Assembly: GCA_030830205.1 (NCBI GenBank) | Contig: JAURNL010000002.1 | Location: 1 to 34,200, forward strand | From: Crocinitomicaceae bacterium | GTDB taxonomy: Bacteria; Bacteroidota; Bacteroidia; Flavobacteriales_D; Crocinitomicaceae | Length of the DNA stretch: 34,200 nt | Direction: 5' to 3' | Shown: piece after piece, positions 4,551-33,481 of the stretch | How the letters are laid out: the number at the start of each line of letters is the position of its first letter | How positions within the stretch are numbered: the stretch's first letter is position 1 | Notes under the pieces: generated by a model | Databases searched by the model: none | What the model saw: the letters and a program-made list of their open reading frames with translations, nothing else | Told to the model about the DNA's origin: nothing | Made by a program: the position numbers and the translations under genes

Positions 4551-5030
4551 TCAAATTCCATTCAGAAGCTTCATAAAATCCTGAAGTTCATCTTTGTGTA
4601 GTGCATGAGCACCCTTACTTAAAAGGGTGTAAACTTCTTGGGCTTTGTGTGGAGAACTTTTTTTTGTTCCCTTCTTGAGTTGCAGTTGGGGCCATGAATT
4701 CCACAGAAAGGCAAGCCAGTTGGTCGCATCAATTTCTTTAAAGTCTTGTTTTGATTTCTTTTCAAAATGATAGAGTTGCCAATTTTCATGCTGAAAATCA
4801 AAAACGGTGAGGTAATCTTGTCCTATTTGTAGGAGTCCTGCGACCGAGGAGTAAACTTTTTCTAGTACAATATTGGAGAATAAGTCAATGAATTCTTGAG
4901 CTTTTTGAGGGTCCTCGCTCGCTAAAACTCGCCATTCGGCATCGTGAAGGTTATTGACAATCAAAAACTGTTTAAATTCAGTTTCTAATTCTTGGAGCTC
5001 TGCTGTTGTAAGTGCCCGATATTTCAGCAT
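4551..5030 (-). CDS. Conserved Bacteroidota protein (possibly the DUF6495 family)
   Basis: 159 aa ORF starting MLKYRALTTAELQELETEFKQFLIVNN; start codon touches the gldH stop, so operonic. Family assignment from memory only. Confidence 0.6.
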   Translation of the reverse strand: MLKYRALTTAELQELETEFKQFLIVNNLHDAEWRVLASEDPQKAQEFIDLFSNIVLEKVYSSVAGLLQIGQDYLTVFDFQHENWQLYHFEKKSKQDFKEIDATNWLAFLWNSWPQLQLKKGTKKSSPHKAQEVYTLLSKGAHALHKDELQDFMKLLNGI

Positions 5031-11356: not shown

Positions 11357-12805
11357 ATGTCTCAAAAAAATTGGAATCTTGAACCATCCTTGGAATCGGC
11401 AGCACTGTTGAAGCTCCAAGATCAATATGAACTTTTTATTGATGGAAAATGGCAAGCGCCTTTGTCCAAAAAATATTTCGATTCGATTAATCCTTCCGAC
11501 GAAAGTAAGTTGGCAAAAATTGCTTGGGCAAATGAAGCTGATACAGATGTAGCGGTTAAAGCAGCCAGAACAGCTTATGAAAACGTATGGTCCAAGTTGA
11601 GTGGTGCTCAACGAGGTAAATATCTTTTTCGAATAGCTAGGCTTATGCAGGAGCAAGCTAAAGAATTGGCTATACTTGAAACACTTGATGGTGGGAAACC
11701 TATCCGAGAGTCTAGGGATGTCGATATTCCTTTGGCTTGTAACCATTTCTTTTATTATGCAGGCTGGGCCGATAAACTACAAGAGGCATTTGCAGGTCAA
11801 CAAATTTCATCTCTCGGTGTTGCCGCACAAATCACACCGTGGAATTTCCCACTTTTAATGCTTGCATGGAAAGTAGCGCCAGCCTTAGCCTGTGGTAATA
11901 CAGTGGTACTTAAGCCTGCCGAAACAACTTCACTCACAGCTTTAAAGTTTGCAGAAATTTGTCAACAAGCAGGGTTACCTGCCGGAGTTGTGAATATTGT
12001 AACGGGTTACGGAGATACGGGTGCAGCCCTTGTTGCACATACAGATATAGATAAAATTGCTTTTACAGGAAGTACAGCAGTTGGAAAGCAAATTCAAAAA
12101 GCCTGTTTGGGCACTTCCAAAAAACTTACACTTGAACTCGGGGGGAAATCTGCAAATATCATATTAGAAGATGCGCCAATAGATCAGGCTGTTGAGGGTG
12201 TCATCAATGCAATCTTCTTTAATCAAGGACACGTTTGCTGTGCGGGATCAAGATTATATGTTCAAGAATCAATAGCTGCCCAAGTACTCGCTAAATTGAA
12301 ATTTCGTTTGCAAAGCATTTACGTCGGAAACCCACTCGATAAAAATACCGATATAGGGGCCATTAATTCCAAAAAGCAACTCGAGACAATTGAACGCTAT
12401 ATTAAGCTTGGCATTGCAGAAGGGGGGCAGATCTATCAACCAACATGTGAACTGCCGTCCAAAGGATACTACTGTAAACCTACACTATTCACTGATGTAG
12501 CACAAAGCGCAACCATTGCTCAAGAAGAAATTTTTGGACCTGTACTGACCATACAAACTTTTCGAACCATGGAAGAGGTAATACAAAAAGCGAATAATTC
12601 ACCATATGGTCTAGCCGCGGGAGTTTGGACAGACAAAGGTTCAAGAATTTTTGGCTTGAGTCAGCAACTCCGAGCAGGTGTTGTTTGGGCGAATACTTAC
12701 AATAAGTTTGATCCTGCCTCACCATTCGGCGGATATAAAGAAAGTGGTTTTGGTCGAGAGGGTGGTCGACACGGCCTTAGTGCATACCTTAAATTCTCAA
12801 ATTAA
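11357..12805 (+). CDS. Aldehyde dehydrogenase family protein (catalytic)
   Basis: [54 protein letters not shown], catalytic Cys [36 protein letters not shown]. Confidence 0.96.
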
Positions 12806-13677
12806 TGGAAATCCTTAAAACCTATAAGCTATATATTGGCGGACAATTTCCGCGCACCGAAAGCGGTCGCTCTTATGCGGTAAAATCAGTGAACGGTGAG
12901 CATATCGCAAATGTTTGTTTGTCATCTAAAAAGGATGTTCGAAATGCGGTACAAGCTGCCAGAAAAGCGCAATTAGCGTGGGCAGGAAAGTCAGCTTTTA
13001 ACCGCAGTCAGATTGTGTACCGAATTGCCGAGATGTTAGAAGCAAGAAAGGCGCAGTTTATAGAGGAATTGCAAGCGTTAGGCCAGAGCAAGAAAAGTGC
13101 CGAATCCGAAGTTTCAATGAGTATTGATCGCTGTGTTTATTATGCAGGTTGGGCAGATAAATATCAGTCCATTATTGGAAGTGTTAATCCAGTTGCGAGT
13201 GCTCATTTTAATTTTTCTGTACCTGAGCCTACAGGAGTAGTTGGCATTGTCGCCTGTCAAGAAACAGCGCTTTTGGGTTTGATTTCTCAACTATTACCTG
13301 TAATAATAGGTGCAAATACAGCGGTAGTTTTGGCAAATGCAACAAAACCAACATGTGCCATTTCGTTTGCCGAAGTTTTGGCTACTGCAGATGTGCCCGG
13401 AGGAGTTGTGAATATACTTACCGGACAGCCTGCTGAATTGTTACCTACACTTTCAGCTCATATGGATGTCAATGCATTGAGCATAGCACCAATTGAATCA
13501 AAACTTCAAAAGGAGGCACAAGCAGAGGCAATTGACAACCTCAAGCGCGTGCATATTTTTGTAGAACCTTTATACGTAAAAAAAGCGCAGGGGTTACCTT
13601 ATATTGCTGATTTTCAAGAGATCAAAACCACTTGGCACCCTATAGAGCAAATTGCGGGTGGTGCTGGTGGGTATTAG
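12805..13677 (+). CDS. Truncated, catalytically incomplete ALDH-like protein (possible ALDH16 C-terminal-domain equivalent)
   Basis: ALDH N-terminal fold visible ([67 protein letters not shown]), but no GQxC catalytic Cys region or ELGG Glu. Start overlaps the upstream stop (TAATG). Confidence 0.85.
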   Translation: MEILKTYKLYIGGQFPRTESGRSYAVKSVNGEHIANVCLSSKKDVRNAVQAARKAQLAWAGKSAFNRSQIVYRIAEMLEARKAQFIEELQALGQSKKSAESEVSMSIDRCVYYAGWADKYQSIIGSVNPVASAHFNFSVPEPTGVVGIVACQETALLGLISQLLPVIIGANTAVVLANATKPTCAISFAEVLATADVPGGVVNILTGQPAELLPTLSAHMDVNALSIAPIESKLQKEAQAEAIDNLKRVHIFVEPLYVKKAQGLPYIADFQEIKTTWHPIEQIAGGAGGY

Positions 13678-27246: not shown

Positions 27247-28230
27247 ATGAAAGTAGCTGTAGTAGGAGCCACCGGCATGGTCGGTTCAGTAATGTTAAAA
27301 GTGTTAGCTGAGCAACAATTTGCTTTAACTGAATTACTTCTAGTAGCCTCCGAAAACAGCGTAGGTAAAAAAATAACGCACCAAGGCAAGGAATATGCTG
27401 TAATAGGTTTGGCGGACGCAGTAGCAGCGGCTCCCGAAATTGCGATTTTTTCTGCGGGTGGAGAAACCTCATTGGAGTGGGCGCCTCGCTTTGCGGAGAA
27501 AGGAACAGTTGTTATTGACAACAGTTCGGCATGGCGAATGGATCCAACAAAGAAGCTCATTGTTCCGGAAATCAACGGACAGCTCCTTACCAAACAAGAC
27601 CTCATCATTGCCAATCCAAATTGCAGTACTATTCAGTTGGTAATGGTTTTGGCACCACTGCACCGCAAATATGGCGTCAAGCGTGTGGTAGTTTCTACTT
27701 ATCAATCGATAACAGGTACGGGGGTCAAAGCTGTTCAGCAATTGGAAAATGAACGAGCTGGCATTCAGGGAGATATGGCTTACAATTATCCAATAGATAA
27801 AAACTGTATTCCACAATGCGATGCCTTCTTAGAAAATGGTTATACCAAAGAGGAGATGAAACTCACTAATGAGACAAAAAAAATATTGGACCCAAGTATC
27901 AATGTAACTGCAACAGCAGTGCGTGTTCCTGTGGTTGGCGGGCATTCTGAGGCCGTCAATATTTCATTTGAAAATGACTTTGATCTTCAAGAGGTCCGTT
28001 CGTTGCTCTCTCAAACACCTGGCATTTCGCTTCAAGACAACCCAGCAAACTATGAGTACCCAATGCCTAGAATGGCAGAAGCTAAAGATGATGTTTTTGT
28101 GGGCAGAATTCGCCGCGACGAAAGCCAAGCGAATACCTTAAATCTTTGGATTGTTGCAGATAATCTTCGTAAAGGAGCAGCAACTAATGCAGTTCAGATT
28201 GCCAACCTTGTTAAAGAATTAATCGCTTAG
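27247..28230 (+). CDS. asd: Aspartate-semialdehyde dehydrogenase
   Basis: VAVVGATGMVGSVMLKVL, SAGGETS, VIDNSSAWRMD, catalytic Cys IANPNCSTIQLV, RVPVVGGHSEAVNISFE. Confidence 0.97.
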   Translation: MKVAVVGATGMVGSVMLKVLAEQQFALTELLLVASENSVGKKITHQGKEYAVIGLADAVAAAPEIAIFSAGGETSLEWAPRFAEKGTVVIDNSSAWRMDPTKKLIVPEINGQLLTKQDLIIANPNCSTIQLVMVLAPLHRKYGVKRVVVSTYQSITGTGVKAVQQLENERAGIQGDMAYNYPIDKNCIPQCDAFLENGYTKEEMKLTNETKKILDPSINVTATAVRVPVVGGHSEAVNISFENDFDLQEVRSLLSQTPGISLQDNPANYEYPMPRMAEAKDDVFVGRIRRDESQANTLNLWIVADNLRKGAATNAVQIANLVKELIA

Positions 28231-29081
28231 TTATTGACTTTGTGGAGTATATAATTTGGTAGCTGATTTGTTGCTCCACTTTGGGATGCCACTATGGCTC
28301 CAACTTCACAGGCAAGTGTCAAACTTTTTTGCCAACTTAGTTTGTTACGTACACAAGTGATTAAACAAGCAAAAAAAGCGTCTCCCGCACCTACAGTGTC
28401 TGCAACTCTGACCTGAGGTGCTGCTGCTTGATAAAGTTCTGAATCGGCAATTAAAAGAGCCCCTTCAGACCCTTTAGTGACACACAATATCATATTTAGA
28501 TGCCATTTTTGGAATGCTTCGAGTCCTGATGAAAGTTCACTGATTCCCCATTTTTGTTGACAAAACCAACAAAACTCTTCTTCATTGAATTTAACAAGTT
28601 GTGCTTGTTCAAGATAATGAAGTATTAAATTAAATTCAAAATAGGGTTGTCTGAGATTTACATCGAAATAATTAAATGTACTTTTTTTTAGAAGTCCATT
28701 AAGTGTATTCCTATTGGCTGGGTTGCGCAAAGCTAATGATCCAAATACAACTTCACCTTGCCAATTTTCAGGTGCTTGAATTTCGTCCCATGCTGCAGGG
28801 TTTGCAATAACATATGAAGCATGCTTATTTTGGTCTAGGGTTACATTGACAACACCAGTTTGCAGGGAATCACTGATCTTTAATAGATGAGGTAAATGCA
28901 TCTTTTTTATAATTTCGGCAATTTCCCCACCGAGGGAATCATCTCCAATTCCTGAGCAAAAAAGCACGTCTTGATTGAATTCATGCAGTCTTAATGCAAC
29001 ATTGAATGGGGCACCTCCAAGCACTTTTCCACTCGGGAATAAATCCCAGAGAATTTCTCCAAAAGCTAAAATAGGGGTCAT
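28227..29081 (-). CDS. PfkB-family carbohydrate kinase (fructokinase-like)
   Basis: LAFGEILWDLFPSGKVLGGAPFNVALRL, DDSLGGEI, C-terminal PfkB signature VADTVGAGDAFFACLI. Confidence 0.92.
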   Translation of the reverse strand: MTPILAFGEILWDLFPSGKVLGGAPFNVALRLHEFNQDVLFCSGIGDDSLGGEIAEIIKKMHLPHLLKISDSLQTGVVNVTLDQNKHASYVIANPAAWDEIQAPENWQGEVVFGSLALRNPANRNTLNGLLKKSTFNYFDVNLRQPYFEFNLILHYLEQAQLVKFNEEEFCWFCQQKWGISELSSGLEAFQKWHLNMILCVTKGSEGALLIADSELYQAAAPQVRVADTVGAGDAFFACLITCVRNKLSWQKSLTLACEVGAIVASQSGATNQLPNYILHKVNN

Positions 29082-29819
29082 TTGTCGAGAAGTTCATTAT
29101 TTAATTCTTCTAAGCTCTTTCCTTTAGTTTCGGGAACATGCCAATTTATCCAGAATAACTGAATCACCATCATGAACATAAAAAAAAGGAAGACATAGGC
29201 AGCACCCAAGCGTTCTGTTGAGCCAATATTTTGAAATAGCCATGGCATAAAAGCCGGAATGAGAGCTGCAAGTATCCAATGTGTTGCCGAACCAAAGGCT
29301 TGTCCTTTTGCTCTAAGATGATCAGGGAATATTTCTGAAATAAAAACCCAAATAACAGCTCCTTGGCCAATCGCATGAGAGGCGATAAACAGAAAGAAGA
29401 AAATACTCTCAAAAAAAATACTTGTCTCCTTTTGAAGGAGCAATTTCAGAAATATATGCCGGTGCAGCTATGGTAGATGCGCCTATGCCGATCCCCCCTA
29501 AAAACCGAGCAAATGCAAAGAAATATGGATCGCTAGCAAACGCAGAACCAAGTGCTGATAATGCAAAAAGGATTCCTACAATGAGCAGTGTGGGTTTAAT
29601 ACCCCATTTATTCGTTGGTAAATGGCCATAGATAGATCCCAAAACTGTACCCCAAAGTGCTGTCGCCATAATTACCATTCCATGAAATAAATTGGAACTT
29701 TTCCAAAGCGCTTGAAGCGTTTGATCAGCTCCAGAAATTACAACCATGTCAAAGCCGAATAGGAACCCTGAGAAGGCAGCGATAATAGCAAAAATGTTCA
29801 CCATGCGAATTTTACTCAT
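29078..29819 (-). pseudogene. MFS sugar-porter transporter remnant: N- and C-terminal fragments in different frames, central part missing
   Basis: 29409..29819 encodes the N-terminus (FSGFLFGFDMVVISGADQTLQ...GIGIGASTIAAPAYISEIAPSKGDKYFF stop). 29078..29443 encodes the C-terminus (FIASHAIGQGAVIWVFISEIFPDHLRAKGQAFGSATHW...HVPETKGKSLEELN). The total span is about 247 codons, against a typical length near 450. Confidence 0.85.
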
Positions 29820-29884
29820 TTGTTCAAATTTTAAAGCTTAAAAATAAATAGAGTCTTTTAAGCCTTAATATGCAGTCATTATAT

Positions 29885-29892
29885 TATTTTTG
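29885..29892 (+). promoter_or_regulatory. Putative -7 element TATTTTTG immediately upstream of the TPP aptamer
   Basis: TAnnTTTG match at the 5' edge of the riboswitch. Confidence 0.5.
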
Positions 29893-29977
29893 CTCCGTCT
29901 CTAAGGGGTGCCGCAAGGCTGAGATTACACCCATTGAACCTGATTTGGATAATGCCAACGAAGGGAAGATGACGAGC
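29892..29977 (+). ncRNA. TPP (THI-box) riboswitch
   Basis: AAGGGGTGCCGCAAGGCTGAGATTACACCC ATTGAACCTGATTTGGATAATGCCAACGAAGGGAA contains the THI-box conserved blocks (GGGGTGCC, CTGAGAT, ACACCC, GAACCTGAT, GGATAATGCC, CGAAGGGAA). Outer P1 arms GCTC.GTCTCT / AGA.GACGAGC can pair. Confidence 0.97.
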
Positions 29978-30034
29978 TTAACTTACATAACTGTCAAGAA
30001 GAGCCCCTTATTCTTGTTTACTTTTTATAAAAAA

Positions 30035-32287
30035 ATGAAAACAAGATTTCTAATTTCAACATGGTTATTCCATGTGACAACAGCAATTGCTCAAAGTACC
30101 GATATTTCACCAATAGATACCATCAAGCGTATTCAAAACATGGAAGAAATAGTTGTTTCGGGCTTACGTGCTAAAGATGCTCCTAACAACATAACAGTTA
30201 GCAAAAAAGAATTGCAAGTCAAGAATTTTGGTCAAGACATGCCAACGCTTTTGGAGTTTACTCCTTCGGTTGTAACCACTAGTGATGCAGGAGCTGGCAT
30301 TGGATACAGTAGCTTGCGTATACGCGGGGTTGACGCTAGTCGGATAAATGTTACCATTAATGGGATTCCGGTCAATGATCCAGAGTCTCATGATGTGTAT
30401 TGGGTCAACATGCCGGATTTAGTTGGTTCAATTGAAAACATGCAAGTGCAGCGTGGGGTGGGGTCTTCTACCAATGGGGCCGCAGCTTTTGGAGCAAGTG
30501 TGAATATCAAAACTAATGAACTCAAAGCACAGCCATTTGCGCGCATGGATCTTTCGGGAGGTTCTTTTGGCACACTCAGAGGAACGCTTCAGGCGGGTAC
30601 AGGCTTGCTCGATAATCGTTTTTGTTTAGAAGCGCGCCTTTCGGAAATACGCTCTGATGGCTACCTTGATCGCGCCACATCTGACTTGCGTTCAATGGGC
30701 CTCACCGCCACGTACCTTTCCAAAAAGTCAGTTTGGAAAGCGGTAGTCTTAACGGGCGCTGAGCGCACATATCAGGCTTGGTATGGCACGCCAGAAAGTC
30801 GTTATCGTGGCGATTCCCTTGGTATGCTCGACTACGCCACGCGCAATGGCCTGAGCGCTGCCGAAACCCAAAACTTATTGGAGTCGGGGCGTACCTATAA
30901 CTTTTACAGCTATGCCAATCAGGTTGATAACTACCAACAAGACAATTACCAACTCCATTTCATACATCGATTTTCCTCAAAACTTGAGCTTAATTTGGCG
31001 GGTCATTATACCTATGGAAGAGGTTACTATGAAGAATTGAGAAACCAAGATGCACTTTCTGATTACGGACTCGCGCCTGTAGTACTTGGTTCAGATACCC
31101 TTGTTACTTCTGACCTAATCAGAAGAAGATGGCTAGACAATCATTTTGTTGGATTGGTTTATGGTCTTAATTACCAATTGAAACCCCATTTGAAATTGAC
31201 CCTTGGAGGTGCAGCAAACCGCTATAAGGGTTTGCATTTTGGTGAATTGATCTGGGCGGAATATGCCTCGAATAGTCAGATCTACGATCGCTATTATCAA
31301 AACGATGCACTCAAAACAGAACTCAGTACCTATCTCAAGTCCAATTATTCGCGCAACGGCTTGGATCTTATACTAGACCTCCAATACCGTGGTATTGCGT
31401 ATCAATTTTTAGGTGTGGATCAGGTTAGTGGCAATTTGACGGACGTTACCCAACATGTTAACTATCATTTCTTTAATCCAAAAGTAGCATTCGCTAAGCT
31501 AATAGGGTCTCATCAATTTTTTGGATCCTTTGGGATTGCCAATCGCGAGCCTGTCCGAAGAGATTTTCGAGAAAGCACCTCTGAAAATAGACCAAGTCCA
31601 GAACGCATGTTCGATACGGAATTGGCGTATCGTTTGCAGTTCAAAAAATTCAATGCGCAGGCCAATATTTTTTGGATGTATTACCATAATCAATTGGTGC
31701 TTACAGGGCAAATTAATGATGTTGGGGGCTACACCCGAACCAATGTTGATCGTAGCTATCGTGCGGGTCTTGAACTAGAAATGGGTTATCAACTGAATAA
31801 AAAACTGAGCATTCAAAGCGCCACAACACTCAGTCAAAACGAGATCATCAATTTTGTGGAATATGTAGACGTTTATCTTGATGTTGATCCCTACTATACA
31901 CAAATTCAAATTCAGCATGGCACAACCGATCTTGCTTTTTCACCTAGCTTTATTCAAACATTGGGCCTGCAATATAGTCCAGTAGAGGGCCTCGCTTTTG
32001 GAATCCAGAGTAAGTATGTATCGCGCCAATTTTTAGATAACACCACTAATGTAGGCAGAAGTCTAGACCCGTTTACTTTTACCAACTTCATTTGTAATTA
32101 CAAGGTCAAGCAAACATTTGCCAAAGAGGTCGAAATAGGTTTAGCGGTCAATAACTTATTCAACGCAATGTATGCGAATAACGGCTACACGTTTAGTTAC
32201 CAATATGCTGGTCAGATAACCACTGAAAATTTCTATTATCCACAAGCAGGCCGACATTTCTTACTGAAAATGAGCATCCAATTTTAA
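30035..32287 (+). CDS. TonB-dependent outer-membrane receptor under TPP riboswitch control (putative thiamin or precursor uptake)
   Basis: ATG at 30035 gives signal peptide MKTRFLISTWLFHVTTAIAQ; TonB-box-like MEEIVVSG; plug motifs LRIRGVDASRINVTINGIPVNDPESHDVYWVNMPDLVGSIENMQVQRGVGSSTNGAAAFGASVNI; C-terminal beta-barrel ending QF. The 55 codons before it contain the riboswitch. Confidence 0.93.
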   Translation: MKTRFLISTWLFHVTTAIAQSTDISPIDTIKRIQNMEEIVVSGLRAKDAPNNITVSKKELQVKNFGQDMPTLLEFTPSVVTTSDAGAGIGYSSLRIRGVDASRINVTINGIPVNDPESHDVYWVNMPDLVGSIENMQVQRGVGSSTNGAAAFGASVNIKTNELKAQPFARMDLSGGSFGTLRGTLQAGTGLLDNRFCLEARLSEIRSDGYLDRATSDLRSMGLTATYLSKKSVWKAVVLTGAERTYQAWYGTPESRYRGDSLGMLDYATRNGLSAAETQNLLESGRTYNFYSYANQVDNYQQDNYQLHFIHRFSSKLELNLAGHYTYGRGYYEELRNQDALSDYGLAPVVLGSDTLVTSDLIRRRWLDNHFVGLVYGLNYQLKPHLKLTLGGAANRYKGLHFGELIWAEYASNSQIYDRYYQNDALKTELSTYLKSNYSRNGLDLILDLQYRGIAYQFLGVDQVSGNLTDVTQHVNYHFFNPKVAFAKLIGSHQFFGSFGIANREPVRRDFRESTSENRPSPERMFDTELAYRLQFKKFNAQANIFWMYYHNQLVLTGQINDVGGYTRTNVDRSYRAGLELEMGYQLNKKLSIQSATTLSQNEIINFVEYVDVYLDVDPYYTQIQIQHGTTDLAFSPSFIQTLGLQYSPVEGLAFGIQSKYVSRQFLDNTTNVGRSLDPFTFTNFICNYKVKQTFAKEVEIGLAVNNLFNAMYANNGYTFSYQYAGQITTENFYYPQAGRHFLLKMSIQF

Positions 32288-32314: not shown

Positions 32315-33481
32315 ATGAAAAATATCTTCGCCACATTTATTACGCTTATTGGATTAACTGCTCAAGCACAAGTTTTAGAAAAGCCACAATTAGTGGAGAA
32401 AATTGATACCAGTGCCATACTCATTCAAGATATCAACGAGCCGCAGGTAGCCACAGAAATATGGGTGGCACCAGATGTAGCAGAAAGCCGCAATACGCCA
32501 TCATTTCCTGGAGGTCAAGAAGCTTTAAACGCATACGTCAAGGAGGAAGTTGAAAATTTTATTTTTGCAGATACTAATGAAACTTTTCCTTGGGGAGAAT
32601 CGGTCTATGTAGTATTTGAAATTGCCACTGATGGCAAAATAACCAATCCCACAATTGAAATGGGCTTCAATGCACTATTAGACAGCGCAGCTCTGGATAT
32701 CGTTCGCAATATGCCGAATTGGACCCCTGCTAGTGATGAAAATGGCATGCCAATAGTTGCTAACTACCGGCTTCAAATTCTCTTCGATCTGGATTTAGAC
32801 CTAGAGGAAGACTTTGATTTTGATGAAGAATCAAAAAGTGCCAAAGCACATTGGGCAGGTTTTGAATTTGGTTTTCAAGTTAATACGATTGGTTTTCTTG
32901 AGCCCTCAAGCTCTTTTGCTTCTACTCCTTATTGGGAGAATAATATTTCAAAAAGCATGTTATTCAATTTGAATACTTTCCAACACAAATTCAGATTATT
33001 GAATGATAATTTGGGACTTATAACAGGCTATGGCTTTAATTTTGGCGCTACAGAACTTACCTCTTCTTATGTACTTGAGCACAACGCAGACAGCGTTTAT
33101 GCCATCATAGACAATAACCAAGTGTACAAGCGCAATACCTTGTATTCAGCTTACCTCACCGTTCCTTTACTGTTGGAACTTACCGCAGGCCAAGATCAAC
33201 CTTACAAAAAGATATTTTATCTAGACGCGGGTGTAATTGGTGGCGTGCGCTTATACAGTCACCAACGCTTTACAGGTACTTATGCCAACGGCAACGAGTT
33301 TGAAAATACAACAAAATCAAAATTCAATCTAAATACTTGGATGCTCGACGCTACAGTACGTATAGGCTATGGCCATTTCGGACTTTTTGCAAATTATGCG
33401 ATACTCAATATGTTTAAGGAAGGCACTACGGTGGGGGTTTACCCAATGCGCTTTGGGGTATCTTTTAACATTCCTCAGTAG
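32315..33481 (+). CDS. Fusion of a TonB C-terminal-like domain with an outer-membrane beta-barrel domain
   Basis: Signal peptide MKNIFATFITLIGLTAQAQ; TonB_C-like SFPGGQEALNAYVKEEV...VYVVFEIATDGKITNPTIEMGFNALLDSAALDIVRNMPNWTPASDENGMPIVANYRLQILF; acidic linker DLDLDLEEDFDFDEES; barrel-like AHWAGFEFGFQVNTIGF...MRFGVSFNIPQ. Confidence 0.8.
   Translation: MKNIFATFITLIGLTAQAQVLEKPQLVEKIDTSAILIQDINEPQVATEIWVAPDVAESRNTPSFPGGQEALNAYVKEEVENFIFADTNETFPWGESVYVVFEIATDGKITNPTIEMGFNALLDSAALDIVRNMPNWTPASDENGMPIVANYRLQILFDLDLDLEEDFDFDEESKSAKAHWAGFEFGFQVNTIGFLEPSSSFASTPYWENNISKSMLFNLNTFQHKFRLLNDNLGLITGYGFNFGATELTSSYVLEHNADSVYAIIDNNQVYKRNTLYSAYLTVPLLLELTAGQDQPYKKIFYLDAGVIGGVRLYSHQRFTGTYANGNEFENTTKSKFNLNTWMLDATVRIGYGHFGLFANYAILNMFKEGTTVGVYPMRFGVSFNIPQ

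Follow-up and report, generated by a model that had tools for sequence, protein, structure and literature searches.

Which compound is imported by a TonB-dependent receptor whose gene lies directly behind a TPP riboswitch aptamer, and how could that compound be turned into TPP in a bacterium that seems, from its gene content, to have lost TPK, the usual vitamin B1-activating enzyme? These questions are raised by a 34,200-nucleotide stretch of DNA from a Crocinitomicaceae bacterium (hereafter the window), which is the entire contig C118 of its assembly. The main features of the locus are the following:

29894–29983, + strand: TPP riboswitch aptamer (RF00059), from cmscan and covariance model R1
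30035–32287, + strand: TonB-dependent receptor predicted to take up thiamin (OMthi/omr1 type), from its Plug domain, tree position and structural model
32315–33481, + strand: secreted protein with TonB C-terminal-like and outer-membrane beta-barrel domains, from Pfam

The first-pass annotation, made from the letters alone, had read a THI-box aptamer upstream of a receptor on the same strand. The Infernal check that it proposed gave a complete match to RF00059 (model positions 1–105) at 29894–29983 of the forward strand, with 59.7 bits (E 1.8e-9) for a gathering cut-off of 54.3 bits, and only the bounds of the earlier reading, 29892–29977, had to be shifted by 2–6 bases. An independent Bacteroidota covariance model, R1, built without the window from 28 TPP aptamers in other genomes of this phylum, placed the aptamer at 29893–29983 (57.9 bits). 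RF00059 was the sole Rfam family matched within the window, and the whole assembly (2.02 Mb, 122 contigs, 93% complete) contains a single TPP aptamer.

The receptor gene (30035–32287, forward strand) encodes 750 aa. We set its start at the ATG at 30035 because the homologous proteins begin with ATGAAAACAAG at the matching place after the leader; the longer open reading frame 29870–32287 reads through the aptamer, upstream of the point at which the homologues start, and was rejected as the gene. Pfam recognized the Plug domain (PF07715, 49.3 bits for a cut-off of 23.9), and its barrel model PF00593 gave no score on this protein. A beta-barrel is present in the AlphaFold model (pTM 0.82), which the fold search matched to TonB-dependent transporters, first to PqqU, the PQQ receptor, and then to siderophore receptors; such matches of a predicted structure would give nothing firm on the substrate. 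Receptors of the subclade to which the window receptor belongs lack the N-terminal CarboxypepD_reg-like domain (PF13715) of most homologues and retain the leader, and the domain has been lost in this subclade.

We ran model R1 over 80 named Bacteroidota loci encoding receptor homologues and recovered the aptamer in 77 of them, directly upstream of the receptor in 76. The three loci without an aptamer (L060, L066, and L109) all begin at or inside the receptor, and the match in L067 lies elsewhere in the locus, the receptor starting at the contig edge. All 76 named homologues with upstream sequence therefore have a TPP aptamer before the receptor, and the same arrangement was found in the receptor loci of the genus with enough upstream sequence. 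The gene following the aptamer in 30 sampled TPP loci of the phylum was either thiS with its operon or the receptor, with one thiM-like exception. The linkage between aptamer and receptor is not due to chance and is kept across the phylum. In four loci (L092, L101, L104, and L108), the receptor start codon lies only about 2–12 bases past the aptamer; there the aptamer alone could mask the start codon, as a second control mode.

The full-length receptors from TPP loci formed one clade (SH-aLRT 84) that included the receptors of two operons composed of aptamer, receptor, PnuC, and TPK (L295 and L296). The window receptor shares 38% identity with these two over the full length, and 22–24% with the other TonB receptors of its own genome. 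In the tree, L295 and L296 stand in for BT2390 by their equal operon layout. This layout of receptor, PnuC, and TPK is that of OMthi-pnuT-tnr3 in gut Bacteroidetes; once OMthi was deleted from a biosynthesis mutant of B. thetaiotaomicron, its thiamin EC50 went up from 2.8 to 15.8 nM (PMC5613172). In marine work such a receptor is called omr1, and Flavobacteriales have it with a TPP riboswitch nearby (PMC10881298). The phylogenetic placement, which the first-pass annotation had named as a possible refutation, grouped the receptor with those of TPP-aptamer operons carrying PnuC and TPK. Together with the aptamer present at every homologue with upstream sequence, it upholds the thiamin-receptor reading. 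The relation to siderophore receptors is weak, with family matches below threshold. Naming the protein after thiamin rather than as a generic receptor is sound. It is not new: the annotation itself gave as established that TPP-regulated outer-membrane receptors are known in Bacteroidota, where they are published as OMthi and omr1 (PMC5613172; PMC10881298), and the idea of a TPP-switched thiamin receptor is already established for the phylum.

The window resembles the OMthi (BT2390) and omr1 systems in its aptamer just upstream of a TonB-dependent receptor and in the clade of that receptor (via L295 and L296). Unlike them, its receptor lies apart from the inner-membrane carrier, lacks the N-terminal CarboxypepD_reg domain and neighbours a TonB_C/barrel protein, and its genome has neither biosynthesis genes nor TPK. 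A related TonB receptor shares its operon with PnuC and a NadR of full length in L160 (642–4295, genome G303) and in L289; that of L160 is 29% identical to the window receptor and falls outside the thiamin-receptor clade, and receptors of this type are candidate nicotinamide riboside receptors.

The first-pass annotation had seen no thiamin biosynthesis genes in the window, and we indeed found no thiamin gene there besides the aptamer-linked receptor. At the scale of the genome (G000, assembly 93% complete), ThiC, ThiE, and TPK gave no match. Among the 31 genomes of the genus, ThiC was found in none, ThiE above the cut-off in one (G317), and TPK (PF04263/TIGR01378) in one (G302), itself without a close receptor homologue. 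Weak TPK-like matches in several genus genomes (E 0.03–0.3) were discarded, those that we read being LipB octanoyltransferase genes. ThiL scored above the cut-off in 28 of the 31 genomes, including the window genome (G000:C93:166-1161), and a PnuC-like carrier was likewise present in 28 (own copy G000:C74:34124-34675). G317 also carries a TPP-aptamer operon (L161, 4708–7767) with ThiE and genes reading like thiM, thiD, and tenA, a salvage set that is missing, judged by ThiE, from the other genus genomes searched.

Since neither HMP nor thiazole would be usable without ThiE, we infer that the receptor imports intact thiamin or its phosphates rather than a precursor. Of the cargo proposed earlier, "thiamin or a moiety", the intact vitamin (or its phosphates) thus stands and the moiety is unlikely. 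ThiL makes TPP from thiamin monophosphate (TMP), and something must therefore supply TMP; the discovery of ThiL also weakened direct import of TPP as the sole reason for the absence of TPK, an explanation that we had considered. In the route that we propose for this thiamin-scavenging Flavobacteriales bacterium, intact thiamin or thiamin phosphate would enter through the outer-membrane receptor, whose expression would be lowered by the leader aptamer when TPP is plentiful. Thiamin would cross the inner membrane, most likely via the PnuC-like carrier, a short NadR-like kinase would convert it to TMP, and ThiL would convert TMP to TPP. We consider this explanation as a whole, from TPP-repressed thiamin receptor through PnuC-like carrier and kinase to ThiL, to be quite likely, and its kinase step by itself less so.

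The PnuC-like gene of the window genome overlaps the gene of a 168-aa P-loop kinase (PF13521, 80.0 bits), both members of the pair being confirmed by Pfam. This kinase gene occupies G000:C74:33633-34133, and another copy of the short kinase lies at 4708–5220 of L064. The pair lies on a different contig from the receptor and has no aptamer there; NCBIfam labels it as nicotinamide riboside (NR) transporter PnuC and NadR domain. The short kinase is homologous to the C-terminal kinase half of NadR, a protein of about 330 aa when full-length elsewhere, and the NMN adenylyltransferase half is absent. It retains the full set of catalytic motifs found in the NadR kinase domain, and its closest solved relatives in the PDB are NadR ribosylnicotinamide kinase domains. 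A branch of the kinase tree (support 98/84) parts the short kinases from full NadR, and 85 of the 88 short kinases carry Trp at position 81, vs. Tyr in all five NadR. The TPP-linked short kinases are scattered over the tree (17 changes), the copies of the genus being inside.

We then considered what surrounds the kinase at 86 additional loci from the class. It has a TPP aptamer and a high-scoring receptor beside it in 6 of the 30 loci with 1.5-kb flanks and in 23 of the 56 with flanks of about 4.5 kb; a kinase beside a TPP-aptamer receptor occurs in about 15 families, for well under 1 expected by chance. Starting from the receptors, the kinase adjoins in 5 of the 80 named loci (L064, L090, L093, L099, and L100). 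In two loci of one genus (L269 and L273), a TPP aptamer directly precedes PnuC, followed by the kinase, and a second aptamer precedes the receptor; in L225 and L228, it is TPK that occupies the slot beside PnuC. None of the five PnuC-NadR loci with full NadR has a TPP aptamer. Of 247 genomes from the class, 124 had the kinase and 46 had TPK, and the two occurred together in only 5 vs. about 23 expected (Fisher p 9e-10, phylogeny ignored). Four of these five belong to one genus in which the kinase domain sits in a long ORF (fusions), and the fifth case is a full NadR. Family f4 has the kinase in three genera and TPK in a fourth. The mutual exclusion is partly phylogenetic.

These patterns suggest that the short NadR-like kinase is a thiamin kinase replacing TPK, which we regard as likely. 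Loci of relatives would then resemble pnuT-tnr3: next to a TPP-aptamer receptor, they have the gene of a PnuC-like carrier and, after it, that of a cytoplasmic kinase. They would differ in that the kinase is a NadR-like P-loop protein (PF13521) and not TPK (PF04263), and in that its product would be TMP, so that ThiL is needed. From NadR, with whose C-terminal kinase domain it is homologous, the short kinase differs by the missing NMNAT, its separate branch, a Trp at position 81 where NadR has Tyr, and its TPP-linked neighbourhoods. We found no description of a NadR-like thiamin kinase in a search of papers outside subscription journals; if the reading is right, the new part of this work would be the intracellular route, in which a NadR-like kinase takes over from TPK. 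Several fusions were also observed. In a Flavobacterium-type locus with PnuC beside a TPP-aptamer receptor (L268, 4269–6389), DUF4301 (PF14134) is fused to the NadR-like kinase, and a similar locus (L111, 3349–5250) has DUF4301 without it; thiamin salvage may involve DUF4301. In L215 (1468–2454), in the same family, a NadR-like kinase with PnuC adjoining is fused to a GNAT acetyltransferase domain.

Other readings of the receptor and of the carrier–kinase pair have to be weighed against this route. It is very improbable that the riboswitch is incidental and that the receptor carries something unrelated (for example a siderophore, heme, or cobalamin). Siderophore and hemoglobin receptor family models do match the receptor, partially and far below threshold, and its fold is common to siderophore receptors, but the linkage to the TPP aptamer extends over the phylum, and the best fold match, PqqU, is a cofactor receptor, so that iron is not indicated by the fold. 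A precursor (HMP, thiazole) or TPP itself as cargo instead of thiamin appears quite improbable: precursors are useless without ThiE, which is absent here and in 30 of the 31 genus genomes, and genomes represented in the receptor clade include some with the PnuC/TPK route, for which free thiamin is the substrate, even though the regulon alone cannot tell vitamers apart and TPK is missing from the genome.

The receptor could also import thiamin while PnuC and the short kinase serve NR salvage, TMP or TPP entering directly and ThiL finishing the TMP. The NCBIfam labels, the conserved catalytic motifs, the nearest solved structures, and the presence of ThiL all agree with this possibility. We nevertheless find it somewhat unlikely. 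NMNAT, the domain that converts NMN to NAD, is missing from the short kinase, whose gene is repeatedly a neighbour of TPP-aptamer receptors (in one genus, the PnuC–kinase operon directly follows a TPP aptamer) and is nearly exclusive with TPK; genuine PnuC-NadR operons are devoid of TPP aptamers (5/5 loci).

The preferred route, with thiamin taken up under TPP repression, leads to the question of how the leader would act. The elements recognized between aptamer and coding sequence are:

29902–29909, + strand: aptamer segment UAAGGGGU, one side of a proposed anti-aptamer pairing A, complementary to 30003–30010
30003–30010, + strand: GCCCCUUA, the other side of pairing A by complementarity to UAAGGGGU, in the loop of hairpin B
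29995–30016, + strand: hairpin B, stem CAAGAA x UUCUUG, loop holding GCCCCUU, full sequence CAAGAAGAGCCCCUUAUUCUUG, from leader comparison
30012–30046, + strand: possible start-codon hairpin C, UCUUGUUU (30012–30019) x AAACAAGA (30039–30046), from the predicted fold

A U-rich stretch (30017–30028) directly follows hairpin B. Hairpin C encloses the AUG at 30035, which it would hide, and is mutually exclusive with hairpin B. Across 30 leaders of the family, every pair of pairing A is standard, save one alignment gap, the stem of hairpin B shows compatible changes only (it is altered in L068), and codons 2–4 (AAAACAAG) are nearly invariant at the nucleotide level. Spirosoma, Siphonobacter, and others have a different stem sequence with CCCC again in the loop. 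Over 36 lineages, CCCC occurs in the leader of 26 (10.2 expected) and within a hairpin loop in 22, for 2.2 expected and a maximum of 7 in 200 shuffles; the distance from this C4 to the AUG is similar in several lineages (27–31 bases). The energy of the aptamer–leader duplex was significant against shuffles (p <= 0.05) in 24 of 73 single leaders, a modest signal because the shuffles keep the C content, and the loop-context test is the stronger of the two. A further helix D (GCUAAUU x AAUUAGC), from the aptamer to hairpin B, is alignable in many relatives and broken in the subclade of the window, and was rejected.

In the likeliest reading, UAAGGGGU would pair with GCCCCUUA in the TPP-free RNA, opening the aptamer and keeping hairpin B from forming; TPP binding would free hairpin B to form and to act against expression. 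We judge it improbable that the CCCC-loop hairpin is due to chance or purely structural, with occlusion of ribosome entry by the aptamer alone as the regulator: the four loci with a start codon directly after the aptamer and the failure of folding alone to separate the states speak for it, and against it stand the 22 lineages with unrelated stem sequences and the similar spacing to the AUG in several lineages. Predicted start-codon accessibility showed no consistent difference (0.41 aptamer-closed, 0.44 C4-captured) and folding thus leaves the ON/OFF logic unsettled.

In the window, hairpin B could be a weak terminator: the U-rich tail is present, the stem has 2 G-C pairs, and the consensus terminator scan did not list it; the U run is missing in several lineages. 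Transcriptional and translational control are about equally likely. In B. thetaiotaomicron, the two TPP-linked transport operons, OMthi included, showed no significant RNA change with thiamin, which suggests that control may be translational or weak, and the action of TPP riboswitches in the phylum has been stated as uncertain (PMC5613172). Structure near the start codon tunes translation in Bacteroidota (PMC6847099). Leaders of Bacteroidota thiS operons (L017 and L025, compared by eye) likewise have a pairing between the 5' strand of the aptamer and the leader, in competition with a hairpin at the start codon. In those leaders, the partner of the P1 strand is CCUAAAGU and the hairpin containing the start codon is CCAUUCC x GGAAUGG, whereas in the window GCCCCUUA, in a hairpin loop, targets the GGGG of P2.

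Taken jointly, we somewhat favour the view that short NadR-like kinases with PnuC form an undescribed thiamin-kinase family standing in for TPK in much of the Bacteroidia, in a route running from receptor to PnuT, thiamin kinase, and ThiL, and that this comes with a TPP-switch platform based on capture of the aptamer GGGG by a C-loop hairpin. Under the automatic names, NR transporter PnuC and NadR, such genomes would be scored as incapable of thiamin activation. Should the kinase indeed act on thiamin, many Bacteroidota of water and soil would need a new assessment of their vitamin B1 status, and the literature gap formed by Bacteroidota without any known B1 route (PMC10881298) would receive a testable answer. 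The leader hairpin offers a concrete hypothesis for TPP riboswitch action in a phylum without Shine-Dalgarno sites.

The gene at 32315–33481 starts 27 bases past the receptor and is probably co-transcribed with it. Its TonB C-terminal-like domain scored 27.4 bits (cut-off 24.6) and its barrel 26.1 bits, just below the cut-off of 27. The TonB C-terminal-like domain is thus joined to a barrel instead of an inner-membrane anchor, and marine relatives keep the barrel only. The gene is kept beside the receptor in the genus and family, the barrel part most widely, and its product is a possible receptor accessory. On the other side, asd directly precedes the aptamer in all close relatives; in the window, a PfkB sugar kinase gene (28227–29081) and a truncated sugar-porter MFS gene (29078–29819, reverse strand) are inserted in this interval. 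The latter consists of N-terminal (29409–29819) and C-terminal (29078–29443) parts and lacks about 230 aa between them; either the inserted DNA has since decayed or the assembly is at fault. Elsewhere in the window, at 11357–13677 on the forward strand, a complete aldehyde dehydrogenase gene is followed immediately by a partial second one, a 290-aa ORF covering positions 11–213 of the 461 of PF00171.
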